Assembly (NCBI GenBank): GCA_030824575.1
Contig: JAVBXL010000214.1
Span: 1-64,000, forward strand
Length of the DNA: 64,000 nucleotides
Source: a bacterium
Lineage (GTDB): Bacteria; Pseudomonadota; Alphaproteobacteria; Sphingomonadales; Sphingomonadaceae
Direction: 5' to 3'
Shown piece after piece: positions 37,021 through 56,459 of the stretch. The translations under genes were made by a program, and so were the position numbers. The notes under the pieces are model-generated. The model had not been told where the DNA came from. It worked only from the letters and a program-made list of their open reading frames with translations, and made no database searches. Numbering within the stretch: position 1 is the first letter of the stretch; the number at the start of each line of letters is the position of its first letter.

Positions 37021-39522
37021 TCAAATATCAGGCAACGCTTGCGCGGCGAAGCCCCAGCCTTTCAGACTTGTGGCACGATCGAGCAGCGTTTCCGTGTCGC
37101 CGATCGAGAAGGGATGCGCGTCCTTGATGCCGTCGAGTTCGTCCCAGTCGATCGGGATCGCCACCGGTGCCCCGGCGCGGGCGCGCGCCGAATAGGGCAG
37201 GACGGCGGTGCTGCCGCGCTGGTTGCGCAGCCAGTCGATGAAGATCTTGTCCTTGCGCTTGGCCTTGCTCATGGTCGCGACGAAGCGGTCGGGCTCGGCT
37301 GCGCTCAGCGCCTGGGCGAAGCGGGACGCGAAATCCTTGTGCGTCTCCCAGTCATGGCCCGGCGTCAGCGGCACGACGACATGCACGCCCTTCCCGCCCG
37401 ACAGCATGGCGAAGGAGACGAGGCCGATATCGGACAACCGCGCGCGAATGTCCTGCGCCGCCGCTTTCACCCGGTCGAAATCCATGCCTTCGTCGGGATC
37501 GAGGTCGAATATCATGCGGTCGGGCCGTTCCACCGCGTCCGTGCGGCTGGCCCAGCCATGAAATTCGATCGTGCCCATCTGGACGCAGGCGAGCAATCCC
37601 TCGGCATCCTCGACATAGATATAATCCTCGCTGCCGCCGTCTTTCTCACCGATAGCCACCTGATGCACCGCCTTGCCGAAGGCGCCGCTGTCATGCTTTT
37701 GGAAGAAGCATTTTTTCGCCCGGCCCTGTGGGCAGCGGACCAGGCTGATCGGGCGGCGGGCGGCGAAGGGTAGCATGAGGGGCGCGATCGCGGCATAATA
37801 GTCGGCCAGTTCGCCCTTGGTCTGGTCGCTTTCAGGGAAAATGACGCGGTCGCGGTTAGTGATCGTAACGGCGGGCGTCGCTTTGGGCACGGCGACGGGC
37901 TTTTCTGGCGCGACCGCTTTTGCCGGCTTGTCGGTGCGCAGGCCCAGGAAGCTGGCATGGCGGACGCGGCCGTCTGCGGTAAATTCGGCGAAGGCGATTT
38001 CGGCGACCAGCTTGGGTTTCAGCCAGGTCGCGCCGCGCGCTTCGGTCCGGGGTACTTCAAGCGGTGCCTTATCCGTTTCGAGCGGGGTCATCGCCTTGGC
38101 GAGCCTATCCATCACTTCCGCGTCGAAGCCGGTGCCGACCTTGCCCTTATAGACCAGCGCCTTGCCCTCATGCTGGGCGAGCAGCAGCGACGCGAAGGGG
38201 CGACCGCGCGCGGCACTCGCGCTGCGGCCGATGATAATAAACTCCTGCCGCCGTGTGCATTTGACTTTAACCCAGTTGCGCGTGCGGTCGCCGCGATAGG
38301 GGGCGTCGATCCGCTTGGAGATGATCCCCTCCTGCCCCGCTTCGCACAGTGAACGATACAGCGCCTCCCCCGCGCCGATGACATGATCGGCGACCTGGAC
38401 CGGCGGGGTTGCCGCCTTGAGCAGCGCTTCCAGCCGCTCCTTCCGCTCGATCTGCGGCATCGCCTTCATATCCTGACCCTCCAGCGAAAGCAGGTCGAAA
38501 GCGAAGAAATGAACGGGCGTATCCTCGCGCTGCGCGCCATGGCCACGCTTCAGGACCGATTGGAGCGCTGAGAAACTGGGATTGCCGTCATCGCCGAAAG
38601 CGACGATCTCTCCGTCGATCAGGGCGGGCGGCAGGTCGAGGGACGCGATCGCGGAGGCGAGCGGCCGGAACTTGTCGGTCCAGTCCAGGCCGCTGCGGGT
38701 GAAGATGCGCACCTGTTCCCCCGCCACCGCAGCGAGCGCGCGATAACCGTCGAACTTAATCTCGTGCAGCCAGTCATTACCCGCAGGCACGTCGTCCACC
38801 AGCGTCGCGAGTTGGGGTTTGGCGAAGCCGGGCGGCTTGGTCCCAACCTTGCGCGGCTTGGCCGCGACCTTTTCATTATGATCGCGCGCCGCCTGCATCT
38901 TGCCGGCGAAGGCCTTGCCCTTCACCCCGGCGAGCGACTGGGCACCCGCCTTGTCCGCCGCGATTTCCGCCATCGAACGCCCGGTCAGCACGCTGGTCAA
39001 CGCCCGTTCGACCAACTGGTCGCCTTCGCCCGCGTCGGCGTCCTCGATCTTGCGCAGCAGCCAGTTTTCGCGCTTTTCCTTTGGCCGCCCTTTCATGCGG
39101 ACCAGCAGCCATTCGCCCTTCATCCGTTCGCCATCCAGGGTGAAGTGCAAATGGCCTTTTTCCAGATCCTTGGCGCTCTTGCCTTCCACCGGCTGCCAAG
39201 TGCCGCGATCCCACAGCATCACCGTGCCGCCGCCATATTCGCCTTCGGGTATCAATCCCTCGAAATCGCCATAGCTCAACGGATGATCCTCGGTCCGCAC
39301 CGCAAGGCGCTTGTCGGCCGGGTCGATGCTCGGCCCCCTGGTCACGGCCCAGCTTTTGAGAACGCCGTCGATTTCCAGCCGGAAATCCCAGTGCAGCCGG
39401 GTCGCATCATGTTTTTGCACGACGAAGCTGTTGCCGCCTGTCGTCGTTACCGCGCCCTTTGGCTCGCGGGTTCGGGCGAAGTCGCGTTTGGCGTTATAGG
39501 CGGCGAGCGGATCGCGGGCCAT
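37021..39522 (-). CDS. ligD: Multidomain DNA ligase D for non-homologous end joining
   Basis: The 833-residue protein has the order phosphoesterase, ligase, polymerase. The 3'-phosphoesterase part spans about residues 30-170 (QKHDATRLHWDFRLE, GLIPEGEYGGGTVMLWD). The ATP-dependent ligase part spans about 235-530, with the adenylated lysine in LHEIKFDGYRAL near residue 255. The archaeo-eukaryotic primase-like polymerase follows at about 555-830 (RVIFPESDQTKGELADYY, then FDLDPDEGMDFD with the metal aspartates). It repairs double-strand breaks together with Ku, whose gene lies three bases upstream in the same direction. All key residues look intact. Confidence 0.95.
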   Translation of the reverse strand: MARDPLAAYNAKRDFARTREPKGAVTTTGGNSFVVQKHDATRLHWDFRLEIDGVLKSWAVTRGPSIDPADKRLAVRTEDHPLSYGDFEGLIPEGEYGGGTVMLWDRGTWQPVEGKSAKDLEKGHLHFTLDGERMKGEWLLVRMKGRPKEKRENWLLRKIEDADAGEGDQLVERALTSVLTGRSMAEIAADKAGAQSLAGVKGKAFAGKMQAARDHNEKVAAKPRKVGTKPPGFAKPQLATLVDDVPAGNDWLHEIKFDGYRALAAVAGEQVRIFTRSGLDWTDKFRPLASAIASLDLPPALIDGEIVAFGDDGNPSFSALQSVLKRGHGAQREDTPVHFFAFDLLSLEGQDMKAMPQIERKERLEALLKAATPPVQVADHVIGAGEALYRSLCEAGQEGIISKRIDAPYRGDRTRNWVKVKCTRRQEFIIIGRSASAARGRPFASLLLAQHEGKALVYKGKVGTGFDAEVMDRLAKAMTPLETDKAPLEVPRTEARGATWLKPKLVAEIAFAEFTADGRVRHASFLGLRTDKPAKAVAPEKPVAVPKATPAVTITNRDRVIFPESDQTKGELADYYAAIAPLMLPFAARRPISLVRCPQGRAKKCFFQKHDSGAFGKAVHQVAIGEKDGGSEDYIYVEDAEGLLACVQMGTIEFHGWASRTDAVERPDRMIFDLDPDEGMDFDRVKAAAQDIRARLSDIGLVSFAMLSGGKGVHVVVPLTPGHDWETHKDFASRFAQALSAAEPDRFVATMSKAKRKDKIFIDWLRNQRGSTAVLPYSARARAGAPVAIPIDWDELDGIKDAHPFSIGDTETLLDRATSLKGWGFAAQALPDI

Positions 39523-39525
39523 GAA

Positions 39526-40398
39526 TCAGGCGCTTTTGCGCTTGGCTGGCGTGCGGGGCTTGGTCGCGGCCGCCTTGGCCGGCGCTTTTTTCGCCGGCGT
39601 CGCCTTGCCCCCATCGCCGACCGATTTCTTGAGCGCCGCCATCAGGTCGATCACATTGCCGCCCTTGGCGCTGGTCGGCTCCTCGACATCCTCGATGATC
39701 CGCTTGCCCTTGGCCTTCTTCTTTTTTTCGATCAGCCGCTGGAGGGCGTCGACATAGCGGTCGTGAAACTCCTCCGGCTTGAAGGGCGCGGTCTTCTTTT
39801 CGATGATGGTGGTGGCGAGGTCCAGCAGGTCTGCGTCGGCCTTGTCGTCGGGCAGATTGCGGAAATAGGTCTGGGCGCGGGTCACTTCGTCGGCATAGCG
39901 CAGCACTTCCAGCACCAGCCCACGGCCGCAGGGCTTCAACGACACAAGCTGCTCACGCCCGCGCACCGACAATTGGCCAAGGCCGACCTTCTTCGTCTGG
40001 CGCAGCGCGTCGCGCAACACGGCATAGGCTTCCTCCGCCAGGTCGTCTGCCGGAACCACGAAATAGGGCTTTTCATAGTAGAGTACATCGATCGCATCGG
40101 ATTCGACGAACTGGACCAACTCCAGCGTCTTGCGGCTCTCGATCTTTACCGCCTCGATTTCTTCCTCCTCCAACAGCACGTAATTGCCTTTGGAAATTTC
40201 AAAGCCCTTGAGGATTTCGTCGCGGTCCACCGGGCCGACGCCCTGCACGACCTTTTCATAGCTGATTGGCTTGCCGGTCGGCTCATGGATCTGGCGAAAG
40301 GATATTGCTGCGCCGGAGCGGGTGGCCGGATAGATTTCCACCGGGATCGATACAAGGGCCAGCCGAATCTGCCCCTGCCAATATGCGCGTGCTGCCAT
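39526..40398 (-). CDS. ku: Non-homologous end-joining protein Ku
   Basis: This 290-residue bacterial Ku begins MAARAYWQGQIRLALVSIPVEIY, has FRQIHEPTGKPISYEKVVQG near residue 36 and a central DNA-encircling domain. A lysine-, alanine- and proline-rich tail (KKAPAKAAATKPRTPAKR) probably contacts DNA or LigD. It binds DNA ends as a homodimer and recruits LigD. The ATG at 40398 has GGAGGT upstream, so the longer frame to 40479 is not used. It is divergent from katG across 177 bases. Confidence 0.95.
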   Translation of the reverse strand: MAARAYWQGQIRLALVSIPVEIYPATRSGAAISFRQIHEPTGKPISYEKVVQGVGPVDRDEILKGFEISKGNYVLLEEEEIEAVKIESRKTLELVQFVESDAIDVLYYEKPYFVVPADDLAEEAYAVLRDALRQTKKVGLGQLSVRGREQLVSLKPCGRGLVLEVLRYADEVTRAQTYFRNLPDDKADADLLDLATTIIEKKTAPFKPEEFHDRYVDALQRLIEKKKKAKGKRIIEDVEEPTSAKGGNVIDLMAALKKSVGDGGKATPAKKAPAKAAATKPRTPAKRKSA

Positions 40399-40483
40399 GT
40401 GACCACCTCCGCTCGCATCAGCGCCCGACCGACCCGGAAGTTCCTTACGATCATGAAACGTCATCACCCTGCCTTCCACTCAT

Positions 40484-40560: not shown

Positions 40561-42780
<2,220 letters not shown>

Positions 42781-42840: not shown

Positions 42841-44451
42841 TTACCGATAGCGACCCATCGTCACCTTGATCCACACTGGCTGGTCAATCATGTTCAGGCC
42901 ATAATCGGTCTGGTCGCCGTTCCATACGCGGTCCATGACCCATGCGCCCTTGTCGAAATGCCCCTCCTCCACTTTGAGGAACATGCCGCCCGGCGCGCCG
43001 CCCGCTTTTGCGGCGAAGTTCAGGCGGACATGGTCGCCGGTGAAGAGAAATTCGTTCGCTGATAATTGCGCGACCACCGCGCCGCCGGTCGGCTCGCTCG
43101 CCCAGGCGGGGCGATCGGCCTCAGGAAACCATTCCCGCTGGCCGAACTGCCATTGGCCAAAGCTGGCGGTAATGGTCCAGTCGCCCATGGTCGTGCTGAC
43201 GGGCGTGCCGTCGTCGGGCTTGGCTGTGCCCCAGACCGGATGATCGTAGGCGATTTTGGCCCAGGGAGCGGACGCCAAGGCCCGATATTTCTGCGCGAAA
43301 GCATCCAGCGTGGCGTCGTCCAGGCGCTTGGCCCCCAACGGATAGTTGTAATAGCCGGTATCATCCATGCCGAACGGCGCGAAGCCGATCGCGCCGCGTC
43401 CCAGCGCCGCCCAGAAATAGCGGGCATATTCGGCGGCATTGCCGATTTCCGGCACCATCAGCGCATTGTCGGGCCGCGTGTAGAGATCGAGATGCTTGAA
43501 GACGTTGCGGCTGGCCCGGTCGTAAATATCGGGCGCTGCGAAATCGATCGAGGGGGCCGCCGCCTTCCAGATGTCGATGACGTCGCCCTGCGGCCCGCCG
43601 CTCGATAACGCCTGCGGATCGGGCTTGCCGAACGGGTCGCCCAGCGCCGCGTTCACATACATGGGCAGCGGCTTGATCGCCTTGCCGGCGCTGGCCAGCG
43701 CCTCGATATAGCGGGCGGTGTGCCAGGTGTTGAAAGCGCGGTCGGCCTGATCGCCGAAGACGGTCGCCCAATCGCCGCCGGGCTTTTGCAGCGCCTTGGT
43801 CAGCGCCGCGGGGACCGGGCCGTCGAATAGCTTCTGCGCGGCGGTGCTGTAGTCGCGGGGGTTTTTATAGCTGCCGACTTCATTTTCCGGCTGCACCAGA
43901 ATGACCGTATTCTGGGCGTCATGGTCGCGAATATAGGTCATCAACGCCAGGAAGGCGCGTTTGTCCGCCGCCAGCGTCGCCGCGCCATGGGGCGACAGCA
44001 CGCCATGATCCTGCCCATCCTTCGTCTTCATGCGCGGGAAGCGGCGGTTGTCGAGCTTCACCCAGTCGGGCGTATAGGACAGGCCGGTATTCTTCCATGC
44101 GCCGAACCAGAGCAGGACGATGCGCTTGTCATGCTTGCGCGCCTCATCCAGCAAAGTCTGGACGAAGCTGAAGTCGAATTTCCCTTCCTGCGGCTCCAGT
44201 TGCTCCCAGGCGATCGGCGCTTCGACCGTGTTCGCGCCGATCCGGTCCAGCACCGGCCAGACCTTTGCCAGCGGTGCGGCATAATTGCTGCTGTTGTTGA
44301 CCTGCCCGCCCAATATCAGGAAAGGCGCGCCATCGACGATCAGTGCGTGGCGGCCCGCTTTGGTTGCGATATGGGGCGTGTCGCCCTGCGCAAGAGCAGG
44401 GGTGGCGAGCAGCAGGGACGCGGCGATCAGGGTCCGGGTGAGGATCATCAA
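42841..44451 (-). CDS. GH35-like beta-galactosidase with C-terminal DUF5597 domain
   Basis: The 536-residue exported protein has a signal peptide (cut near ALAQGD), a GH35-type barrel and a C-terminal sheet domain of the DUF5597 type found in Xanthomonas and Caulobacter beta-galactosidases. FLILGGQVNNSSNYA and APIAWEQLEPQEGKFDF mark the barrel. VQPENEVGS near residue 188 holds the acid/base Glu and MVPEIGNAAEYAR near 333 the nucleophile Glu. It probably removes galactose from galactosylated xyloglucan oligosaccharides in the periplasm. It is the last gene of the fucose operon, eight bases after the mutarotase. Confidence 0.85.
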   Translation of the reverse strand: MMILTRTLIAASLLLATPALAQGDTPHIATKAGRHALIVDGAPFLILGGQVNNSSNYAAPLAKVWPVLDRIGANTVEAPIAWEQLEPQEGKFDFSFVQTLLDEARKHDKRIVLLWFGAWKNTGLSYTPDWVKLDNRRFPRMKTKDGQDHGVLSPHGAATLAADKRAFLALMTYIRDHDAQNTVILVQPENEVGSYKNPRDYSTAAQKLFDGPVPAALTKALQKPGGDWATVFGDQADRAFNTWHTARYIEALASAGKAIKPLPMYVNAALGDPFGKPDPQALSSGGPQGDVIDIWKAAAPSIDFAAPDIYDRASRNVFKHLDLYTRPDNALMVPEIGNAAEYARYFWAALGRGAIGFAPFGMDDTGYYNYPLGAKRLDDATLDAFAQKYRALASAPWAKIAYDHPVWGTAKPDDGTPVSTTMGDWTITASFGQWQFGQREWFPEADRPAWASEPTGGAVVAQLSANEFLFTGDHVRLNFAAKAGGAPGGMFLKVEEGHFDKGAWVMDRVWNGDQTDYGLNMIDQPVWIKVTMGRYR

Positions 44452-44459
44452 GGTGCCTT

Positions 44460-44807
44460 TCAGGGCTGTTCATCAAGAGAGAAGATGCGGGCCGCCTGCG
44501 TCCATTTGGCGTCGGGCTTGGCCCAGGGCAGCGGGCGCTGGACAGCATCCATCTGCGCTTCCCAGGCCTGCACCGCCGGGTCGGCGGCGTCGGCCGCCGC
44601 CTTGTTCGCCGGATCATAATCGGTGCCGGTTTCCATCAGCATGACCAGCCGGTTGCCGCTGCGGTAGATGTCCATGGCGGTAACATCGGCCGCGCGGATG
44701 CTGGCGGCGATTGCGGGCGGCAGCGCGCCGGATGCGTGCCACGCCTCATAGTGCGCGATGGCCGCCGCGTCGTCGGCCAGGTCGATCAGCAGGACGTGCC
44801 GCATCAA
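44460..44807 (-). CDS. L-fucose/L-rhamnose mutarotase (RhaM-like)
   Basis: The 115-residue protein belongs to the RhaM (DUF718) family of 6-deoxyhexose mutarotases. IAHYEAWHASGALPPAI near residue 17 includes the conserved His and Trp/Pro region, and TAMDIYRSGNRLVMLMET the core strands. Family members interconvert alpha and beta anomers of L-rhamnose or related sugars. In this operon, with a fucose permease and fucose-type dehydrogenases, L-fucose is the more likely substrate. It overlaps the dehydrogenase gene by ATGA. Confidence 0.85.
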   Translation of the reverse strand: MMRHVLLIDLADDAAAIAHYEAWHASGALPPAIAASIRAADVTAMDIYRSGNRLVMLMETGTDYDPANKAAADAADPAVQAWEAQMDAVQRPLPWAKPDAKWTQAARIFSLDEQP

Positions 44808-45535
44808 TTGACCCAGCCGCCGTCGATCACATGGACCGCGCCGCTGGTGAAGGACGCTTCGTCGCTGGCGAGGTACAGCACCAGCGCAGCGATCTCCTCC
44901 GCCCGGCCGAGCCGGCCCATCGGCTGGCGCGCAGCGAAGGCCGCCTGTGCCGCCGCATAATCACCAGTGTCATGGAGGCGCTGTTGCAGGGAAGGCGTGT
45001 CGATCGTGCCGGGACAGATGCAGTTGCAGCGCACGCCCTGCCCCACGAAATCGGCCGCCACAGCCTTGGTCAGGCCGATGACGCCCGCTTTGCTCGCGCC
45101 ATAGGCGAAGCGGTTGGGGATGCCCTTCACCGAACTGGCGATGGAGGACATGTTGACGATCGATCCCGCGCCCCTCTCCACCATGCCGGGCAGGAACGCG
45201 CGGATCGTATGATACATGGCGGTCATGTTGAGCGAAAGGGCGAAATCCCAATCTTCCTGCGGACATTCGAGGATGTTGCCGGCATGGACCACGCCCGCGA
45301 TATTGGCGAGGATGTCGATCGCGCCCACCTCCTGCGCCAGCGCCCGCACCGCCGCACCGTCAGTCACGTCGAGCGCGCGCAGGTCGCAGCCTTCCAGCCC
45401 GTCGAGCGCGTCGCGGTCCCGGTCAGTCGCGATCACCTGCGCGCCTTCCGCCACGAAGCGCTGCGCCGTTGCCCGGCCGATGCCCCGCGCTGCTGCTGTG
45501 ATGAGGGCCACCTTGCCCGCGAGCCGCGCGCTCAT
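44804..45535 (-). CDS. SDR dehydrogenase, probable 2-keto-3-deoxy-L-fuconate dehydrogenase
   Basis: The 243-residue short-chain dehydrogenase has VALITAAARGIGRATAQRF near residue 9 for NAD binding, NIAGVVHAGN near 87, and catalytic MSSIASS/AYGASKAG near 133-150. CNCICPGTIDTPSLQQRL near 175 resembles the 2-keto-3-deoxy-L-fuconate dehydrogenase of Xanthomonas. This enzyme oxidises C4 of the keto-deoxy acid on the way to pyruvate and lactate. It overlaps both neighbours by four bases, so stoichiometric expression is likely. Another sugar acid is possible. Confidence 0.82.
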   Translation of the reverse strand: MSARLAGKVALITAAARGIGRATAQRFVAEGAQVIATDRDRDALDGLEGCDLRALDVTDGAAVRALAQEVGAIDILANIAGVVHAGNILECPQEDWDFALSLNMTAMYHTIRAFLPGMVERGAGSIVNMSSIASSVKGIPNRFAYGASKAGVIGLTKAVAADFVGQGVRCNCICPGTIDTPSLQQRLHDTGDYAAAQAAFAARQPMGRLGRAEEIAALVLYLASDEASFTSGAVHVIDGGWVN

Positions 45536-46734
45536 GCGCGGGCTTTCGTGGGCAGACAGTCGGGGCCGATGGGATCGAACGCCTTGTAGGTCAAAATAAA
45601 CTCCTGATGGCCCAATTGTTCGGAGATACTGCGTTCGCCCGCAGCAACGCTGAGCACCTTGTCGTAGATTTCCGTGCCGACCTGCTCCAGCGTGGCCTCG
45701 CCTTCCAATATGCGCCCAGCGTTGACGTCCATGTCAGCGGCCAGGCGGCGGCCAGTGTCGGGATTGGCGCAGATCTTGATGACCGGCGATATGGCCGATC
45801 CGACCACCGACCCGCGCCCGGTAGTGAAGAGCGTCAGATGCGCGCCGCAGGCGATCAGTTCGACTATCTCCGCATTGTCGGAGATATTGGGGAAACCGAA
45901 GCGCGGTTCGCCATCGGGCACCACGTCGAGCAGATAGAGACCGCCGGTGGGCGGCAGGTCGCCCGGCTTCAATATTCCGTCGATGGTCGACGAGCCGGAC
46001 TTGCTATAGGCACCCATCGACTTTTCCTCTTGCGTCGTCAGGCCACCTTCCGCATTGCCGGGCGCGAAGCTGCCAAAGCCCATGATCGTGTAATAGCGTT
46101 CCGCCTTCTGCACGCATTCCTCTATCGCGACGGCGAGTTCCGGCGTGCGGGCGCGGTCGGCCATGATCGTCTCACACCCGACCAGTTCGCCCGTTTCTTC
46201 GAAAATGCAGGCAGCGCCCTCCGCGACCAGCCGGTCGAAGGCGCGGCCGACCGCCGGGTTGGCGGTGATGCCGCTGGTCCCGTCCGACCCACCGCAGATG
46301 GTGCCGACGATCAGTTCCTCCACGCCCATCGGCCCGCGCGGCACATCAGCGATGGCCGCGCGCACCCGCGCCACCGCTTCCACGCCCGCTGCGATCGTCG
46401 CGGCGGTGCCGCCCGTTTCCTGAATCACCAGCAATTCGGCGGGCCGCCCGCTCGCCCGCGCCACCGCCAGCAGCCGCTCTCGATTGAAACTCTCGCACCC
46501 CAGCGACACGATCACGAGGCCGCCGACATTGGGATGGGTGGCGATCGCCTCCATCACCTTGGCCGCATAGGCATTGGGATAGCAGCCGGGGAAGCCGATC
46601 AGCTGGACGTCGGGATCGTCCGCCTTGTCCACGATCCGCCGTGCGACATGATGCGCGCATTCGACCAGATAGGCGACCGCAACGACGTTGCGGATGCCCT
46701 TGCGCCCATCCTGCCGGAGCCAGGCCTGGATCAT
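45532..46734 (-). CDS. UxaA-type sugar acid dehydratase, large domain (probable L-fuconate dehydratase)
   Basis: The 400-residue protein matches the C-terminal catalytic domain of altronate/galactarate dehydratases (UxaA family). RQDGRKGIRNVVAVAYLVEC at the start, FPGCYPNAYAAKVM near 48, SLGCESFN near 77, VGTICGGSDGTSGITANPA near 143 and FTTGRGSVVGSAISPVIKI near 307 are typical. In full-length relatives an N-terminal SAF domain precedes it; here that domain is attached to the upstream aldo/keto reductase. The operon suggests L-fuconate as substrate, in place of an enolase-type fuconate dehydratase. It overlaps both neighbours by ATGA. Confidence 0.8.
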   Translation of the reverse strand: MIQAWLRQDGRKGIRNVVAVAYLVECAHHVARRIVDKADDPDVQLIGFPGCYPNAYAAKVMEAIATHPNVGGLVIVSLGCESFNRERLLAVARASGRPAELLVIQETGGTAATIAAGVEAVARVRAAIADVPRGPMGVEELIVGTICGGSDGTSGITANPAVGRAFDRLVAEGAACIFEETGELVGCETIMADRARTPELAVAIEECVQKAERYYTIMGFGSFAPGNAEGGLTTQEEKSMGAYSKSGSSTIDGILKPGDLPPTGGLYLLDVVPDGEPRFGFPNISDNAEIVELIACGAHLTLFTTGRGSVVGSAISPVIKICANPDTGRRLAADMDVNAGRILEGEATLEQVGTEIYDKVLSVAAGERSISEQLGHQEFILTYKAFDPIGPDCLPTKARA

Positions 46735-47990
46735 GCGCCTTCCTCCAGCGCGGTGCGCGTGTGGCTGCTGATATAATCGCTTTTCATATTATGCATGTGT
46801 ACCCAGTCGCCGCTGACGGCATTGGCGGTCATCGACCCGATCGGCGCGCCATATTTGATGACCTTGTCCCCGGCACTCAGCGGCGCGCGGGCGATCTTGT
46901 GGCCGATGGCGATGCCTTCGCGCGCGGGGATCGTCCCGCCCGATACCGGAAGGATATCGCCCGCTTCGATTGCGCGAACGCAGATTAGGACATTATCGTC
47001 CGGATGCAGCAGGATCAGGCGTGCGTCGTCCTGCAACATGGGAAGCTCTTTCAGTGAGGCGTCTAGCGCGGGCCAAAGCGCATCGGGCAATGCGGTCGAG
47101 AGGCGGGTCATGGTGTCGGCGACCTGATCCGCGCCGACCAGGCCGGGAATGACGCTGACGACGGTGGGATGGCGGAGCGGGAATTGCAACGCTGCGGCGG
47201 GCAGCGAAGCATGGAAGGCGGCACAGGCGTCCGACAGGCGCTGCGCCTTGGCCATTATGTCCGCGCTGGGCACGGCATAGTCGAAATGGAGCGGACCGCT
47301 AAGATCGCGCGCCAATATGCCGCTATTATAGGGGCCGCCGACGATGACCTGCACGCCCAATTCCACGCAGCGTGCCAGCAATCGCTCAGCGCTGCGATCG
47401 AGCAGCGTATAGCGCCCGGCGAGCAGGATCATGTCCAGTGCGACATGGTCGAGTACCTCGTCGCAGATCGCGACTTCATTGACGCCGATGCCGATCGCGC
47501 CGATCGCGCCCGCATCGCGCAAGTCGCACATCGCGCGGTAGCCGCCGTTCAGGAAGGCGCGCAGGTGGCGATCGTGATCGTCGCCATGGGTCGCCCGGCC
47601 GAGATCATGGGCGAGCAGCAGGTCGATCCGGTCGCGGCCAAGCCGCGCGCAGCTGCCCTCGAAAGATCGTAGCACCGCGTCATGGCCATAGTCGAAGACC
47701 GGATCATAGGGATCGGCATCGACGAAACCGTGCCGTTCGCCCTGCGCATCGGTCGGTGCCAGCAGACGGCCGACCTTGGTCGACAGGACCGCTTCGTCCG
47801 CCGGATCGCGCGCCGCCAACATCGCACCCAGCCGCCGTTCGGCCAGGCCGAAGCCATAATGGGGCGCGGTGTCATAATAGCGGATGCCCACGTCCCAGGC
47901 GGCGTCCAGCGTAACGCGCGCCTCCGCGTCACTGACGGCGCGATAGAGGTTACCGATAGGCGCGGTGCCCATGCCGAGACGTGGGATCAT
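46731..47990 (-). CDS. Aldo/keto reductase (probable L-fucose dehydrogenase) fused to a UxaA-type SAF domain
   Basis: This 419-residue protein has two parts. Residues 1 to about 315 form an aldo/keto reductase of the L-fucose/D-threo-aldose dehydrogenase type, with the tetrad Asp40, Tyr45, Lys72 and His128 (YYDTAPHYGFG, LSTKVGR, LLAHDLG) and the cofactor end PGLVGADQVADT. From about residue 325 to the end lies a SAF domain as found at the N-terminus of UxaA dehydratases (IARAPLSAGDKVIKYGAPIG, SGDWVHMHNMKSDY). The frame is continuous, and the UxaA catalytic domain is the next gene, overlapping by ATGA. The first part would oxidise L-fucose to the lactone; the second should partner the dehydratase. 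Confidence 0.85.
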   Translation of the reverse strand: MIPRLGMGTAPIGNLYRAVSDAEARVTLDAAWDVGIRYYDTAPHYGFGLAERRLGAMLAARDPADEAVLSTKVGRLLAPTDAQGERHGFVDADPYDPVFDYGHDAVLRSFEGSCARLGRDRIDLLLAHDLGRATHGDDHDRHLRAFLNGGYRAMCDLRDAGAIGAIGIGVNEVAICDEVLDHVALDMILLAGRYTLLDRSAERLLARCVELGVQVIVGGPYNSGILARDLSGPLHFDYAVPSADIMAKAQRLSDACAAFHASLPAAALQFPLRHPTVVSVIPGLVGADQVADTMTRLSTALPDALWPALDASLKELPMLQDDARLILLHPDDNVLICVRAIEAGDILPVSGGTIPAREGIAIGHKIARAPLSAGDKVIKYGAPIGSMTANAVSGDWVHMHNMKSDYISSHTRTALEEGA

Positions 47991-49210
47991 GCCGGCAACT
48001 CCCGACGCGCGGCGCGGGCGTACAGCGCCACGACCGCGAAGCAGACCGCGGGCACGACCATCGCCGCCCGGATCGTGCCGGCCAGGTCGGATAGCAGGCC
48101 CATCGCCATGGTCAGCACCGCGCCGCCGATGATCGCCATCACGATCATTGATGCACCCGCTTTGGTCAGTGGTCCCAAGCCGCGCAGCGACAGGACAAAG
48201 ATGCTCGGGTACATGATCGACATGAAGAAGCTGGTCGCCACCAGCGCGACAAGGCCGACGAGGCCGCCCGCCACCGCCACCAGCGACAGGATGATATTGA
48301 TCGCCGCGAAAAGCACCATCAGCCGCGCGCCGTCGAACCGGGATAGCAAGGCCGCGCCGATGAAACGGCCGATCATGAACAACGCCAGCGACAGGGTGAG
48401 CAGCCAGGCCGCCTTTTGCGCGCCGATGCCGGGCATGACGCTTTGCGCATAGCGGATCAGGTAGCTCCAGATGCCGACCTGCGCGCCGACATAGAAAAAT
48501 TGCGCGGCCACTCCCGCCATGTAGCGCGGCCGGCGAAGCAACGCGCCATAGCCCGCCAGCGCCGACCCGCCGCTGCCGTCTGCCTGAGTGGCGGCGCGAG
48601 GAAAGCGGGTGAAGGCCAGCACCGCGGCCCAGCCCAGCACGACCGCCGCGATACCGAGATAAGGGAGTTGCACCGCCGCCGCGCCCGCCGCGCCCTGTTG
48701 TGGCGCATCGGACAGGATCAGCGTCGCACCCAGCGCCACGCCGGCGATCGACCCCAGCGGGTTGAACGCCTGCGCCAGGTTGAGGCGCTGCGCCGCCCCC
48801 TCCACCGGTCCCATCGCCGCGACCATCGGATTGGCCGCCGTTTCCAGAAAGGCCAGGCCGCTGGCGATTACGAACAGGGCGAACAGGAAAAAGCCATAGC
48901 TCAGTTGCGTCGAGGCCGGCAGGAACAGCAGCGCGCCGCCGCCGAACAGCAGCAGGCCAAGGATGACCGTCGCCTTATAGCCCAGCCGCTCGGCCGCCAG
49001 CGCGGCGGGAATGGCGAAACAGAAATAGCCGAGATAGAAGGCCGACTGGACCAGGCCCGACTGGAAATCCGACAGCGAAAAGACGTGCCGGAAATGGGCG
49101 ATCAGCACGTCGTTGAGGTTGTTCGCCACTCCCCACAGGAAGAAGAGGCCGGTGGTCAGGACCATCGCCGCCCGGCTGCGCCGTTCGACGCCGGCTTGCT
49201 GAATGTGCAT
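47987..49210 (-). CDS. fucP: L-fucose permease (FucP-like MFS transporter)
   Basis: The 407-residue inner-membrane protein has 12 predicted helices and FHS-family motifs: TGLFFLWGVANNLNDVLIAHF near residue 20, QSAFYLGYFCFAIPAALAAER near 55 and ETAANPMVAAMGP near 122, as in the L-fucose/H+ symporter. The ATG at 49210 has GAGAGG eight bases upstream; the longer frame up to 49306 runs through a terminator hairpin and is unlikely. It overlaps the fusion gene by ATGA and starts only about 21 bases after that terminator. Confidence 0.88.
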   Translation of the reverse strand: MHIQQAGVERRSRAAMVLTTGLFFLWGVANNLNDVLIAHFRHVFSLSDFQSGLVQSAFYLGYFCFAIPAALAAERLGYKATVILGLLLFGGGALLFLPASTQLSYGFFLFALFVIASGLAFLETAANPMVAAMGPVEGAAQRLNLAQAFNPLGSIAGVALGATLILSDAPQQGAAGAAAVQLPYLGIAAVVLGWAAVLAFTRFPRAATQADGSGGSALAGYGALLRRPRYMAGVAAQFFYVGAQVGIWSYLIRYAQSVMPGIGAQKAAWLLTLSLALFMIGRFIGAALLSRFDGARLMVLFAAINIILSLVAVAGGLVGLVALVATSFFMSIMYPSIFVLSLRGLGPLTKAGASMIVMAIIGGAVLTMAMGLLSDLAGTIRAAMVVPAVCFAVVALYARAARRELPA

Positions 49211-49231
49211 CAGTTCATCCTCTCTCTTCCT

Positions 49232-49268
49232 AAAAAGGTAGACCGGTCCTTTAAGGGGCCGGTCTACC
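49232..49268 (-). terminator. Hairpin with T-tract between the receptor and fucP
   Basis: On the minus strand GGTAGACCGG and CCGGTCTACC (49268-49259 and 49246-49237) form a perfect 10-bp stem around a 12-base loop, followed directly by TTTTT. It lies 34 bases after the receptor stop and about 21 before the fucP start. It is the clearest of the three receptor-linked terminators in this window. Confidence 0.88.
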
Positions 49269-49302
49269 AGGGGAGGGACGGTAGAAACGCCCGCATGGCG
49301 GA

Positions 49303-51996
49303 TCAATAGGTGATGCGGGCGGTCAGACTGATGCGACGGTCGTTGACGACGACGTCGCGCGGACGGCTGTCGATCCCGAAATAGGTGGACCGGCGCGTAT
49401 TGGTCAGGTTCACGCCATCTACCGCCAGGGCGAATTGCGGCGTGACATTATAGCTGACTGATGCGTCCAGCTGACCGAAGGGCTTGTTGAAGATTGGCAG
49501 GTTGCCGGTTCCGTTGCCCGCCGTCGTGACGACATATTTGCTGCGCCAGTTATAGGCGACGCGCGCGGACAGGCCGCCCAGCTCGTAGATGCCGACGATA
49601 TTATAATTATATTTCGACAGCAATTCCAGCGGCACGTTGACGACCGGGCCGGTCGTCGCCGGAGACGGCGCCTTTGAATCTACATAAGTGAAGTTCGCCT
49701 GCATGCCCAGGCCACTGAGCGGTCCAGGCAGGAAGTCGAAGAACTGCTGATAGGCCAGTTCAAACCCCTTCACCTTGCCCTTGGCGACATTGTTGAACGA
49801 CGTGACCTGATATTCATATGTGTTGCCATTGTTGAAGGTTACGTCGCGGGCCGCGACGGCCGTCTGAATATAGTTTTTGATGTTTTTGTAGAATCCGGCG
49901 GCTGTCAGCGACCCGGTCCGGGAGAAATACCATTCCAGCGACAGGTCGAGATTGTCCGACTTCATCGGCTTTAGATAGGGGTTCCCACCGCTGGTCAGGT
50001 GCAACTGATCCTGCTGCGCCTGGCCTGGTTCGGTGATGTTGAGGCTGGGGTTCAACTGGCCAAAGCTGGGCCGCGAAATATTCTTCGCCGCCGCTAGGCG
50101 CAGTTGCAGGTCGTCGGCCAGGTGAACGCGCAGGTTCAGGCTGGGCAGCACCGAGGTATAGCTGCGCGACGCATTGATGGGATTGAACTCGGCCGGGCCG
50201 TTGCTTTCGGTGCCGTCGGGGTTCTGGATGATCGCGATCTGCTGGTAGAAGCCCGATACGTCGAGATCGGTGCGCACGACGCGCACGCCGATATTGCCAT
50301 CGACAGGATCGGTCTTGAAGAAGGCGGTGGCATAGCTGGTCCAGGTCTTTTGGCGCTGCGCGTTGGTGCCGCTCTGGACATAGGCCGGCGGGCCGGCGAT
50401 ACCCAGCGTGTCGAGCGTATCCTGATAGTTGCGGATGATGCCGCGATTGAAGGCGATGATGTTGCCGAACAGGTCGGCGTCGCCGCGGAAGAAGTTGCTG
50501 AGGTCGACATTTTCCAGCTGGCTGGGGATACCGGCCAGGCCGGTGTAGCGATAGCCGGTGTCGATCGTCCGGTTCTTGCGATCAGCAAAGCGGATACCCG
50601 CCTTGATCGACGAGAGGATGCCTGCGTCGAAGCGATATTCGGCGTCCAGCCTTGCCGTCCTGTCCGACGCCTTCGATTCGTTGAGATTGTCGAGGTAGAA
50701 GGCGCTGTTGTAGGTCGCCGGATTGGCAAGGCCAGTGGCCGAACCGATATTCACGACCGGCACCGATCCCGAAATATCCTGATACAGCGTATCGGCGGTG
50801 CCGTTCAGGCCGAAGATCGAACGCAGATTTTTCGTTTTTGCGTCCACATATTGGCCGTCGGCCGTAACGGTCAGGTTGGCGCTCGGCTTCCATTTCAGAT
50901 TCAGCGAATAATCGGTCGTCTTCGACCGGCGCGTTTCCGCACTGGTGTTGTTGCCGACGGGCAGGTTGATGAATGTGCCGCTCTGAAAATCGCCATTATC
51001 GGCATAGGTGAACGGCGCGCCTGGCAGCGGCTGGATCGCGCTGTTCGACGTATAGGCGAAGAAGCTATAGTCGTCGTAGCGGAACTTATAATCCGAACGG
51101 AAGACTTCGGCGGTCAACTCCAGCGTGTCGCTGGGGCGCCACTGGACCGATACGTCGGTGCCCAGGCGGCGGCGGTCGCCATAGACTTCGCCAATGCCGG
51201 TGCCGTGGGGCAGCGTGGTCACCTGACCGGTGCGGCCCAAGGTCGCCAGCACGGCGGCATCGCCGGGCACAGAGGGATCGAGCGTATAGAAAGGCTCGGT
51301 CGAAATAGTATCCTGACGGAAGGCGGTCTTCTGGAAGGAGACACTGGCAAGGATGCCGATCTCACCGATGCCCGTGTCCCAACGGTTGCTCAGCAGGAGC
51401 GAGGCCGACGGCTTGTAACGGTCGACCAGGTCGAAATGACTCTGGGTCAGGGATGCCGCCGCCTTGAAACCGTCAAAGTCGAACGCTTTGCGGGTGCGGA
51501 AATTGATCGTGCCCGACAACTGATCTTCGATCAGGTCGGCCGACGGATTTTTATAGACGTCGATGCCGGACAGCAGTTCAGAAGGAATATCCTCCAGGTT
51601 AAGCTGGTTGGCGCCGCTGGCGGTGAAGATGTCGCGACCGTTCAGTTCGGTCCGCACCTGAGTCAGGCCGCGGATCGCGACTGAACTGCCTTCGCCAAAA
51701 CGGCGCTGGACCTGGATGCCGGGAATGCGCTGGAGCGCCTCTGCGACGTTGCGGTCAGGCAGCTTGCCGATGTCTTCCGCGACGATCGAATCGACGATGA
51801 CGTCGCTGTTGCGCTTGATCGCCTGGGCGCTCGACAGGCTGGCGCGGACGCCGGTGACGACGATGTCGCCTTCGGTCGCGGCGGGCTGCGGCGGCGTGGC
51901 TTCCTGCGCGTGGACGTTGCTCCCCAGCGCGATGCTGGCGATCGAAATGCCGGCCAGCAACGCAGCGCGACGCGGCATAGGCGTGATCTTGGTCAT
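49303..51996 (-). CDS. TonB-dependent receptor of the xyloglucan/fucose locus
   Basis: The receptor has about 897 residues: signal peptide to SNVHAQE, plug motifs GDIVVTGVRASLSSAQAIK, IVAEDIGKLPDRNVAEAL and DQLSGTINFRTRKAF (carbohydrate-type TIGR01782 subgroup), and a barrel ending RRISLTARITY. It should carry glycan fragments, probably xyloglucan oligosaccharides, across the outer membrane. The ATG at 51996 has GAAGGGG upstream. The gene is divergent from the IclR regulator, with a clear inverted repeat between them. Confidence 0.9.
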   Translation of the reverse strand: MTKITPMPRRAALLAGISIASIALGSNVHAQEATPPQPAATEGDIVVTGVRASLSSAQAIKRNSDVIVDSIVAEDIGKLPDRNVAEALQRIPGIQVQRRFGEGSSVAIRGLTQVRTELNGRDIFTASGANQLNLEDIPSELLSGIDVYKNPSADLIEDQLSGTINFRTRKAFDFDGFKAAASLTQSHFDLVDRYKPSASLLLSNRWDTGIGEIGILASVSFQKTAFRQDTISTEPFYTLDPSVPGDAAVLATLGRTGQVTTLPHGTGIGEVYGDRRRLGTDVSVQWRPSDTLELTAEVFRSDYKFRYDDYSFFAYTSNSAIQPLPGAPFTYADNGDFQSGTFINLPVGNNTSAETRRSKTTDYSLNLKWKPSANLTVTADGQYVDAKTKNLRSIFGLNGTADTLYQDISGSVPVVNIGSATGLANPATYNSAFYLDNLNESKASDRTARLDAEYRFDAGILSSIKAGIRFADRKNRTIDTGYRYTGLAGIPSQLENVDLSNFFRGDADLFGNIIAFNRGIIRNYQDTLDTLGIAGPPAYVQSGTNAQRQKTWTSYATAFFKTDPVDGNIGVRVVRTDLDVSGFYQQIAIIQNPDGTESNGPAEFNPINASRSYTSVLPSLNLRVHLADDLQLRLAAAKNISRPSFGQLNPSLNITEPGQAQQDQLHLTSGGNPYLKPMKSDNLDLSLEWYFSRTGSLTAAGFYKNIKNYIQTAVAARDVTFNNGNTYEYQVTSFNNVAKGKVKGFELAYQQFFDFLPGPLSGLGMQANFTYVDSKAPSPATTGPVVNVPLELLSKYNYNIVGIYELGGLSARVAYNWRSKYVVTTAGNGTGNLPIFNKPFGQLDASVSYNVTPQFALAVDGVNLTNTRRSTYFGIDSRPRDVVVNDRRISLTARITY

Positions 51997-52138
51997 GAAA
52001 CCCCTTCCTCTCCCTGACGCCCCGATCGGAGCGTTCGACTCGCGACCACTTCGGGCCGCCGAAAACCTTCCCTTATGCGCCTCGTCCCGCTTTGGGAGCG
52101 GTAACAAGGCGACCCTCCATTACTCCCACATTTTGAAT

Positions 52139-54039: not shown

Positions 54040-54837
54040 ATGCGGCATCTTATCGCTTGTTGCTGCGCGCTGGCGCTGGGCAGCCCGGCATTCGCCGTGA
54101 GCAAGGTGCCCGGCGACCCGCATGTCGATGACCCGGTCGGCATCGTTGCAGACCCCTGCCCGGCCCATCCCAAGCCGACGGATGAAGCGGGCTGGAAGAT
54201 GTGGAACCTCCATATGCTGACCCGCGATTTCGGGCAGTTATGCCGCTATGCCGCGGACAATAAGGCGATGGAAGGCCAAAGGGTCCGGGCCGTATTCATG
54301 GGCGATTCGATCACCGACAACTGGATCAACGCCGATCCGTCGATGTTCACCGACGGCCTGGTCGATCGCGGCATCAGCGGGCAGACCACGGCGCAGATGC
54401 TGGTGCGCTTCCGCAGCGACGTGATCGCGCTCAAACCGCAGGTCGTCCACATCATGGCGATGACCAATGACATCGCCGGAAACACCGGCGCGGCGACGAT
54501 GAACACGGTGCTGGGCAATATCCAGACTATGGCCGAGCTGGCCGATGCGCATGGGATCAAGGTCGTCCTTGCCTCCGTGCCGCCCGCGGGCGCCTTCCCC
54601 TGGAGTCCGGGGCTGCAACCCGCGCCGCAGATCGCGGCGATCAACAGGTGGCTGTCCGATTATGCACGGAGCCGGGGCTTCACCTATGTCGATTATCATA
54701 GCGCCATGGCGCAGGCGGATGGCGCGATGAAGCCGGGCCTGTCCAGCGATGGCGTGCATCCAACCGCGGCAGGCTATGCGATCATGCGCCCGTTGGCGCG
54801 GCAGGCGATCGACAAGGCGTTGAGGGCCATTCAATGA
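54040..54837 (+). CDS. Exported SGNH/GDSL hydrolase, probable acetylesterase
   Basis: This 265-residue protein has a signal peptide (MRHLIACCCALALGSPAFA) and the four SGNH blocks: FMGDSITDNW (catalytic Ser), RGISGQTT (Gly), AMTNDIAG (Asn) and SSDGVHPTAAG (Asp and His). Such enzymes deacetylate sugars. Acetyl groups on the galactose of xyloglucan are a plausible target here. The ATG at 54040 is taken because GAGGA lies five bases upstream; the in-frame ATG at 54028 has a weaker site. It overlaps the fucosidase gene by ATGA. Confidence 0.87.
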   Translation: MRHLIACCCALALGSPAFAVSKVPGDPHVDDPVGIVADPCPAHPKPTDEAGWKMWNLHMLTRDFGQLCRYAADNKAMEGQRVRAVFMGDSITDNWINADPSMFTDGLVDRGISGQTTAQMLVRFRSDVIALKPQVVHIMAMTNDIAGNTGAATMNTVLGNIQTMAELADAHGIKVVLASVPPAGAFPWSPGLQPAPQIAAINRWLSDYARSRGFTYVDYHSAMAQADGAMKPGLSSDGVHPTAAGYAIMRPLARQAIDKALRAIQ

Positions 54838-56459
54838 CGATGCTGGGACGCCGATCCTTCCTGGCGGGCACCGCTGCGCTGGGCCTAGCCCGCGCTGCCC
54901 GCGCGGCCAGCCCCATGGGCACGATGCGCGGGCCGGTGCAGCCAAGCTGGTCCTCGCTGGTCGTCAACTACCGCTATCCCGACTGGTTCCGCGACGCGAA
55001 GCTGGGGATGTGGTCGCATTGGGGGCCGCAGTCGGTGCCGGCGCAGGGCGACTGGTATGGCCGCTTCATGTATATGCAGGGCCATCCGATGTACGAGCAT
55101 CACCTGAAAACCTACGGCCATCCGTCGGTTTCGGGGATGAAGGACATCCAGAATCTGTGGACCGCCGACAAGTGGGAGCCGGACGCGCTGATCGCCCGCT
55201 ACCAGAAGGCGGGGGCCAAATATTTCATGGCGCTCGCCTGCCATCACGACAATCTGGATTGCTACAACAGCCGTTATCACGCCTGGAACAGCCTGCGCGT
55301 CGGGCCGAAGAAGGATGTGGTCGGCATCTGGGAACAGGCGGCGCGGCGCGCGGGGATGAAGTTTGGCGTGTCCAACCATGCCGCCCATGCCTGGCACTGG
55401 TATCAACCCGCCTATGGCTATGATCCAACAGGCCCGAAGAAGGGCGAGCGCTACGATGCGTTTCGCCTGCGCAAGGCGGACGGCAAGGGGCAATGGTGGG
55501 AGGGCCTCGATCCGCAGGAGCTTTATACCGGCGGCCATGCCGTGTTGCCCGATGGCATCGACACGATCGAGGCGATGGACAAATGGCACGACGCGAATAA
55601 CGGCCAGTGGATCGAAACCGGGCCGAAGGACGACCCGGCCTATGTCACCCGCTGGCTGCTGCGCCAGACCGACCTTGTCGCGAAATATAAGCCCGACATC
55701 GTCTATATGGACGATCATGAACTGCCCTTCGGACCCGTAGGGCTGGAGGCGGCGGCGGACTATTATAACCGATCGATCGACTGGCACGGAAAGATCGATG
55801 TAGTGCTGACGGGCAAGCAGCTCAAACCCTATGCCCGCTTCGGCATGGTGCAGGATGTCGAGCGCGGCTTTACCGACCATCTGTGGGACGAGCCGTGGCA
55901 GACCGACACCTGCATCGGCGACTGGTTCTACAATGAAGCCCGGCTGCACGACAAAAGCTACAAGAGCGCGGAGGAAGTCATCCAGCGGCTGGCCGATGTC
56001 GTTTCGAAGAACGGCAATCTCATGCTCTCCATCCCGCAGCCGGGCGATGGGTCGATCGACAGCGAGACGGAGAAGGTGCTGGACGGCATGGCGGCGTGGA
56101 TGGTCCATGGCGGTGAGGCGATTTTCGGGTCGCGGCCGTGGCGCATCTATGGCGAAGGGCCGACCCAGTTGATCGCAGGGATGCAGAATGAGGAGAAGGC
56201 CAAACCCTTCACCGGCCAGGACATCCGCTTCACGACGAACAAGGGCGCGCTTTACGCGCTGATCCTGGGCAGGCCGGACGCATCTACGACTATCCGCTCA
56301 CTGGCGCGCGGCCGCGTGGGCAGTCAGATCGAACGGGTGACGCTGCTCGGCGGCGGTCCGATCGCCTTTCGTCAGGATGGCGCGGGCCTCCATGTCGACA
56401 TGCCGCAGGGCAGGCATTTCGTTCCGGTTGTCCGCATCGACGGCCGGGGCCTCGTCTAA
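54834..56459 (+). CDS. GH29 alpha-L-fucosidase
   Basis: The 541-residue protein has a Tat-like signal (LGRRSFLAGTAALGLA) and a GH29 barrel. WFRDAKLGMWSHWGPQSVP near residue 50, KAGAKYFMALACHHDN near 128 and DIVYMDDHELPFG near 290, with the nucleophile Asp in MDD, are typical, and NLMLSIPQPGDGSID near 397 ends the barrel. A C-terminal sandwich follows. It would release the terminal L-fucose of fucogalactoxyloglucan, supplying the fucose operon on the other strand. It overlaps the SGNH gene by ATGA. Confidence 0.93.
   Translation: MTMLGRRSFLAGTAALGLARAARAASPMGTMRGPVQPSWSSLVVNYRYPDWFRDAKLGMWSHWGPQSVPAQGDWYGRFMYMQGHPMYEHHLKTYGHPSVSGMKDIQNLWTADKWEPDALIARYQKAGAKYFMALACHHDNLDCYNSRYHAWNSLRVGPKKDVVGIWEQAARRAGMKFGVSNHAAHAWHWYQPAYGYDPTGPKKGERYDAFRLRKADGKGQWWEGLDPQELYTGGHAVLPDGIDTIEAMDKWHDANNGQWIETGPKDDPAYVTRWLLRQTDLVAKYKPDIVYMDDHELPFGPVGLEAAADYYNRSIDWHGKIDVVLTGKQLKPYARFGMVQDVERGFTDHLWDEPWQTDTCIGDWFYNEARLHDKSYKSAEEVIQRLADVVSKNGNLMLSIPQPGDGSIDSETEKVLDGMAAWMVHGGEAIFGSRPWRIYGEGPTQLIAGMQNEEKAKPFTGQDIRFTTNKGALYALILGRPDASTTIRSLARGRVGSQIERVTLLGGGPIAFRQDGAGLHVDMPQGRHFVPVVRIDGRGLV

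Follow-up and report, generated by a model that had tools for sequence, protein, structure and literature searches.

A heteromeric L-fuconate dehydratase has been predicted for Paraburkholderia mimosarum (A19U_RS0100650 and A19U_RS0100655; Watanabe et al. 2019, PMC6336799), and the same report, where it treats the UxaA/GarD superfamily, describes the sulfolactate sulfo-lyase SuyAB, which catalyzes another reaction, as likewise heteromeric. In Campylobacter jejuni, the N- and C-parts of a UxaA-type enzyme are encoded apart (cj0482-cj0483), with L-fuconate dehydration as their proposed function (PMC12566272). The locus described here resembles both. Like the P. mimosarum pair, it has a UxaA/GarD-type dehydratase split over two genes in an L-fucose setting, but its putative small subunit is fused to an aldo/keto reductase (AKR); the P. 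mimosarum pair is predicted from gene context, given as unpublished data (PMC6336799). In C. jejuni an SDR (FucX) acts as fucose dehydrogenase, and the pertinent sections of that study mention no join of an AKR to an SAF domain (PMC12566272).

We propose, with a probability of about 0.72, that the gene encodes an AKR-family L-fucose 1-dehydrogenase bearing the small subunit of a heteromeric L-fuconate dehydratase, and that the dehydrogenase is thereby built into the dehydratase complex. The dehydrogenase and the SAF small subunit would be carried on one chain with a short variable linker, the fused SAF would pair with a separately encoded 400-residue large subunit, the dehydrogenase would become part of the dehydratase complex, and both enzymes would be produced in fixed proportion from one operon. 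The likely gain would be in stoichiometry and assembly. We infer that L-fucose is the substrate, that SAF and large subunit pair, and which reactions the enzymes catalyze. The gene and its junctions lie on the minus strand of the window, the whole 64,000-nucleotide stretch of DNA that was analyzed:

46731..47990, minus strand: fused AKR-SAF gene of 419 codons, ending in TGA (46731-46733)
47055..47990, minus strand: AKR part, residues 1-312, PF00248; closest to L-galactose dehydrogenases among solved entries, by sequence and by fold
47037..47054, minus strand: linker, residues 313-318, between the AKR and SAF matches; the variable stretch begins here
47037..47052, minus strand: candidate internal start, a Shine-Dalgarno-like GAAAGAG motif, 6 bases and ATG (Met318)
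46740..47036, minus strand: SAF part, putative small subunit of a UxaA/GarD-type sugar-acid dehydratase by sequence and predicted-fold matches
46731..46734, minus strand: ATGA overlap of the fusion stop and the large-subunit start
45532..46734, minus strand: 400-residue protein, putative catalytic (large) subunit of the dehydratase with the FucC role; PF04295 (94.9 bits) and PF20629 (269.3 bits)

The first-pass annotation, which named no strand, had described a continuous 419-codon frame joining an AKR to an SAF domain. This is borne out: from 47990 to 46731 the minus strand is a single open frame covering both, and the plus-strand reading of the interval is interrupted by stops. Pfam Aldo_ket_red (PF00248) matches residues 4-312 (profile positions 1-289 of 291; 133.5 bits, E 1e-38). 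By sequence and fold comparison, the nearest solved entries are the L-galactose dehydrogenases 9w6y, 8scc, 7smi and 7ezi. The four residues named earlier as a catalytic tetrad, D40, Y45, K72 and H128, are all in place, and we take them to be the Asp-Tyr-Lys-His tetrad of AKRs. The AKR part is a probable L-fucose/L-galactose type 1-dehydrogenase with the FucA role.

The SAF domain spans approximately residues 318-415. Residues 326-403 match the galactarate dehydratase N-terminus (TIGR03248, E 1.3e-6), and residues 324-404 match the altronate hydrolase N-domain (3k3s, E 2e-11). With the Pfam SAF model (PF08666), the window protein goes unrecognized at E 0.01; in our alignment of 103 sequences (fused proteins together with free AKRs and SAFs), the model recognizes 51. 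A profile built from 55 SAF sequences retrieved 3k3s (1.9e-26), 3laz (1.1e-11) and residues 18-89 of 6u7l (2.9e-10), with nothing else below 0.4 in this structure-sequence search. The predicted SAF fold aligns to 3k3s with an rmsd of 0.9 Å (TM 0.93 by target length). An AlphaFold2 model of the whole fusion has a mean pLDDT of 93.3 and a pTM of 0.80, with pLDDT dipping to 76 at residues 311-320.

The adjoining gene, overlapping by ATGA, had been named as the source of the matching catalytic domain, and it does encode a 400-residue protein with GD_AH_second and GD_AH_C domains, in which a Pfam search finds no SAF domain. It matches 6u7l with E 1.3e-40. Its C26, C51, C80 and C147 are constant in 112/112 rows and C393 in 107/107; for the UxaA/GarD superfamily, four conserved iron-binding cysteines are reported (PMC6336799). 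The remaining genes of the neighborhood are:

42841..44451, minus strand: GH35-family beta-galactosidase-like protein, DUF5597; NF051902 475 bits, just missing the cut-off of 500
44460..44807, minus strand: RhaM-family mutarotase; PF05336, E 3.6e-22
44804..45535, minus strand: SDR, probable L-2-keto-3-deoxyfuconate (L-KDF) 4-dehydrogenase; 8xwk/8y11/8y4j, E ~1e-93
47987..49306, minus strand: L-fucose:H+ symporter FucP; TIGR00885 356 bits (cut-off 280.4); its stop overlaps the fusion start
49303..52107, minus strand: TonB-dependent receptor; TIGR01782 731 bits
52240..53025, plus strand: IclR-family regulator
54834..56459, plus strand: GH29 alpha-L-fucosidase; PF01120, E 8e-76

The window also holds a LigD-type DNA ligase (37021-39522, minus strand) adjoining a gene at 39526-40479 (minus strand), presumably for a Ku-like protein, and, next to this pair, a catalase-peroxidase-like gene (40576-42780, plus strand).

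Genes for uptake, mutarotase, dehydrogenase, dehydratase and L-KDF dehydrogenase are thus clustered, and the operon points to non-phosphorylative L-fucose catabolism. The L-fucose context is suggested by FucP scoring above its cut-off, the SDR resembling L-KDF dehydrogenase, the GH29 fucosidase, and an AKR nearest to L-galactose dehydrogenases; the SDR entries 8xwk, 8y11 and 8y4j are the L-KDFDH of H. huttiense, as given in the structural part of PMC11199699. L-fucose is the best substrate guess from these neighbors, with L-galactose and D-arabinose as alternatives; a comparable AKR of P. mimosarum is described as using both D-arabinose and L-fucose in the passage of PMC6336799 that concerns it. 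The AKR product is a lactone, and a lactonase step separates the AKR and dehydratase steps in the pathway as outlined in PMC11199699. No lactonase gene was found adjoining the window's operon, and the closest L-fuconolactonase homolog in the genome (41% identical) lies on another contig (C142), away from the fucose genes.

The distribution of the fusion was surveyed through large-subunit orthologs (E <= 1e-80). These occur in 18/397 genomes of the family, 11/385 of the class, 16/398 of the phylum, 25/94 of the window's genus (g1, putative Sphingobium), 47/201 of genus g91 (putative Sphingomonas) and 1/2 of genus g30, samples that overlap one another. Further loci came from a set of 152 relatives, of which the best 80 were kept, and one ortholog search gave 48 matches, of which 47 were taken in (45 new, two present already) and one, G1289, was left out. 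Dropped before counting were 12 loci taken as duplicates of G loci (L006-L017), two single-chain SAF-UxaA proteins (L031, L032) that share only 33-35% identity with the large subunit of the window, and loci without a UxaA match above 300 bits. The final set comprises 112 de-duplicated loci, the window included. An SAF was called free when its frame had no match to the other eight profiles.

By this definition the SAF is free in 79 loci, as a gene of ~100 aa whose SAF begins at an in-frame start codon in every case; it is fused to an AKR in 30 loci and to a lactonase-type protein in two, and in one no SAF was found. That one, L150, has a large-subunit ortholog with no recognizable SAF gene upstream. 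The SAF adjoins the large-subunit gene in 111/112 loci and is fused to its own catalytic subunit in none of the 111, the distant L031 and L032 lying outside this set. The 30 AKR-SAF fusions are 19 loci of the window's genus (window included), 10 g91 loci from nine genomes (one carrying two) and L130 of g30. This identical frame in 30/112 loci rules out a frameshift, sequencing or assembly artefact; the fusion is real and conserved. The earlier description of a split dehydratase whose SAF rides on the AKR of the first pathway step therefore holds, but a split as such is nothing peculiar to this gene, given the 79 free SAFs, and had already been predicted in the account of a heteromeric L-fuconate dehydratase (PMC6336799).

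Both lactonase-SAF fusions (L029:3528-4667, a gammaproteobacterial MAG; L137:4907-6004, genome G311) place the SAF at the C-terminus of a lactonase-type amidohydrolase and are adjoined by the same large subunit. Pfam Amidohydro_2 is found in the fusion partner, which we take to be a COG3618-type amidohydrolase, and the SAF part of L137 matches PF08666 above its cut-off. These joins parallel the window's fusion with a different partner. Separately, a 5451-base contig of the window's own assembly (L285; G000 contig C161) carries a second SAF end, a large subunit (96% identical), an SDR and a mutarotase; this may be a second strain or a duplicate, the assembly having a contamination of 8.93%.

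The two halves of the fusion are both under purifying selection, with dN/dS of 0.18 for the AKR and 0.13 for the SAF across 18 Sphingobium loci, against 0.56 for the linker (16 alignment columns). At 13 positions of the SAF, one residue accounts for at least 95% of the sequences compared (up to 111 loci). In the 30 fusions the majority residue is kept at all of these, without exception at 12 and in 29/30 at the remaining one. Linkers of the 30 fusions come in 11 different lengths; that all are multiples of three follows from the definition of "fused", so it is the 11 lengths that carry weight. In nine of the 30, the 12 codons preceding the SAF core include no ATG, GTG or TTG, and in five (L228, L236, L239, L240, L243) the stretch free of in-frame starts extends to 20 codons.

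Eight genomes (G1306, G1261, G1142, G1145, G1158, G1381, G1204 and the window's) were searched for SAF domains. G1306 (L236), G1261 (L239) and G1142 (L234) have a single match, the fused one; in L234 the nearest ATGs are 14-15 codons off. Since in G1306 and G1261 the sole SAF match is fused and has no start within 20 codons upstream, these genomes must make their SAF as a fusion. A further match turns up in G1145, G1158 and G1381, where its frame spans 506-628 aa and probably encodes a single-chain UxaA; the unfused G1204 has two matches. The window's genome has no complete match besides the fusion, just a fragment where a contig ends. As the near-invariant residues of free SAF subunits are kept, the SAF part has very likely retained its function for the large subunit, with which the fusion very likely assembles.

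In a tree of AKR, SAF and UxaA (70 loci), the fused g91/g30 clade (11 rows) is sister to a clade of the window's genus with 19 fused and five unfused loci (support 99/97); within the latter clade, the unfused L229-L233 branch as the sister group of the 19 fused loci with modest support (94/89). A UxaA-only tree from a quick search does not settle the order of these clades. A single clade of all 30 fusions is rejected (p-AU 0.0075). AKR and SAF were thus either fused twice, or fused once and later split in L229-L233; two changes are needed either way. These five near-identical loci of the window's genus encode AKR and SAF separately, the two genes sharing a ATGCTTGA overlap in phase 1, against phase 2 in the other 35 unfused AKR-SAF loci, which favors the re-split history; L229-L233 are possibly a re-split of a former fusion. 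The two-fusion history is favored by relic start codons that differ between the two fused clades. The join is in any case dispensable for persistence of the operon, as L229-L233 show. Origin through loss of a lactonase gene between AKR and SAF was rejected: in unfused sphingomonad relatives with the AKR before the SAF the two already adjoin, and four fused loci (L130, L228, L243, L244) have a lactonase upstream. A lactonase lies within the fetched stretch in 4/30 fused and 31/40 unfused loci, a comparison that holds two independent pairs only and stretches of unequal length.

The strongest competitor to a dehydrogenase built into the dehydratase, though we give it somewhat less than an even chance, is a neutral join: a chance stop loss between overlapping, co-translated genes, tolerated thanks to a free, exposed SAF N-terminus, with dehydratase function kept and no benefit gained. 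All 40 unfused loci with the AKR directly upstream of the SAF satisfy a 20-nt rule for proximity and 35/40 are in ATGA phase, so that a small indel would be enough for fusion, and the unfused form persists within the window's own genus (L229-L233). Other close pairs nevertheless stay apart. Among neighboring domain pairs no more than 150 nt apart, the fused share is 30/70 for AKR-SAF and 2/8 for Lac-SAF, as against 0/111 for SAF-UxaA, 0/69 for UxaA-SDR, 0/34 for Lac-AKR, 0/31 for SDR-Mut, 0/28 for TonB-FucP, 0/26 for FucP-AKR, 0/22 for Mut-GH35, 0/15 for FucP-SDR, 0/13 for AKR-Lac, 0/8 for SDR-Lac and zero in smaller classes, counts that refer to related species rather than independent events. 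The one further case, FucP-Lac (1/14), is a one-genome duplication: L230:2588-4723 holds FucP and lactonase in a single frame through a short duplication absent from four near relatives, and could be an assembly error. Joins in these operons therefore concentrate at the SAF N-terminus. The 32 SAF fusions go back to three or four events (AKR-SAF once or twice, Lac-SAF apparently twice in distant rows), and the N-terminal bias is explained equally well by a free SAF N-terminus or by benefit. On the side of benefit, the SAF could be a reusable docking piece that, fused to the preceding enzyme (the AKR dehydrogenase in sphingomonads, the lactonase in two other lineages), plugs this enzyme into the dehydratase; the result would be an L-fucose metabolon to deal with the labile lactone, and selection would be the reason why the join arose separately. 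We think such a role unlikely. That the SAF part has left the dehydratase for another role, such as stabilizing or regulating the AKR, is hardly credible: nothing was found in its favor, the SAF residues are equally conserved in fusions and free SAFs, an intact large subunit adjoins the fusion, and the window's genome lacks another complete SAF match.

It is also possible, though doubtful, that the gene in the window's lineage has two products, the full fusion and a free SAF initiated at the codon-318 ATG, which would make the tether optional. This ATG aligns with the actual SAF start of the unfused L229-L233, and 17 of the 19 Sphingobium fusions keep an ATG seven codons upstream of the SAF core, mostly after GAAAGR. 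It may be a mere relic of the old start. Anti-SD pairing upstream of it has a median of -4.9 kcal/mol, against -2.2 at 210 internal Met codons (p 2.9e-4, too small a value as the rows are related). Similar values are found at 73 free SAF starts (-4.6) and 19 SDR starts (-4.8), but UxaA starts pair much better (-9.3). The anti-SD letters used are our assumption; the 16S 3' end sought to confirm them was not found, the one match not being recognizably 16S. The linker Lys is encoded by AAA in 9/10 aligned rows, where the AKR and UxaA domains have 22 AAA to 206 AAG; a second Lys column, within the SAF, is AAA in 19/19, so codon choice proves little and the bias is merely suggestive. The nine fusions with no start codon close to the SAF core also speak against a second product. 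We retain the dehydrogenase built into the dehydratase complex as the preferred reading. Channelling of sugar acid through the fusion, which the first-pass annotation had suggested, is only a possibility; the join skips the lactonase step that lies between the two joined enzymes, and a review states, where it discusses such tests, that fusion by itself did not promote channelling (PMC4921024).

The SAF fold and catalytic domains of E. coli GarD (6u7l) and the UxaA N-domain (3k3s) match those of the window. In 6u7l, however, SAF and catalytic part form one chain, whereas here the SAF is attached to another enzyme. The L-galactose dehydrogenases nearest to the AKR (~26-28% identity) give matches that stop before the SAF. 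For the SuyAB subunits, we know of no fusion to a pathway enzyme. Automatic labels such as "aldo/keto reductase" or "UxaA family hydrolase" overlook half of such proteins. No description of an AKR-SAF or lactonase-SAF fusion was found in full-text searches of open PMC papers; the split dehydratase is already known, and the fusion partner of the SAF is the element undescribed in the open PMC literature. Whether fused neighbors form working metabolons is a long-standing question. AKR-SAF, lactonase-SAF, fully split and possibly re-split forms, the last within one genus, make up a natural series in one operon type, which offers matched natural proteins for the effects of tethering on flux, stability and lactone leakage. 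Like the metabolic gene fusions or "Rosetta stone" proteins treated in the corresponding section of PMC4921024, the window's gene puts enzymes of one pathway into one chain; it differs from those described there in joining an enzyme to the subunit of another enzyme, with the lactonase step skipped.
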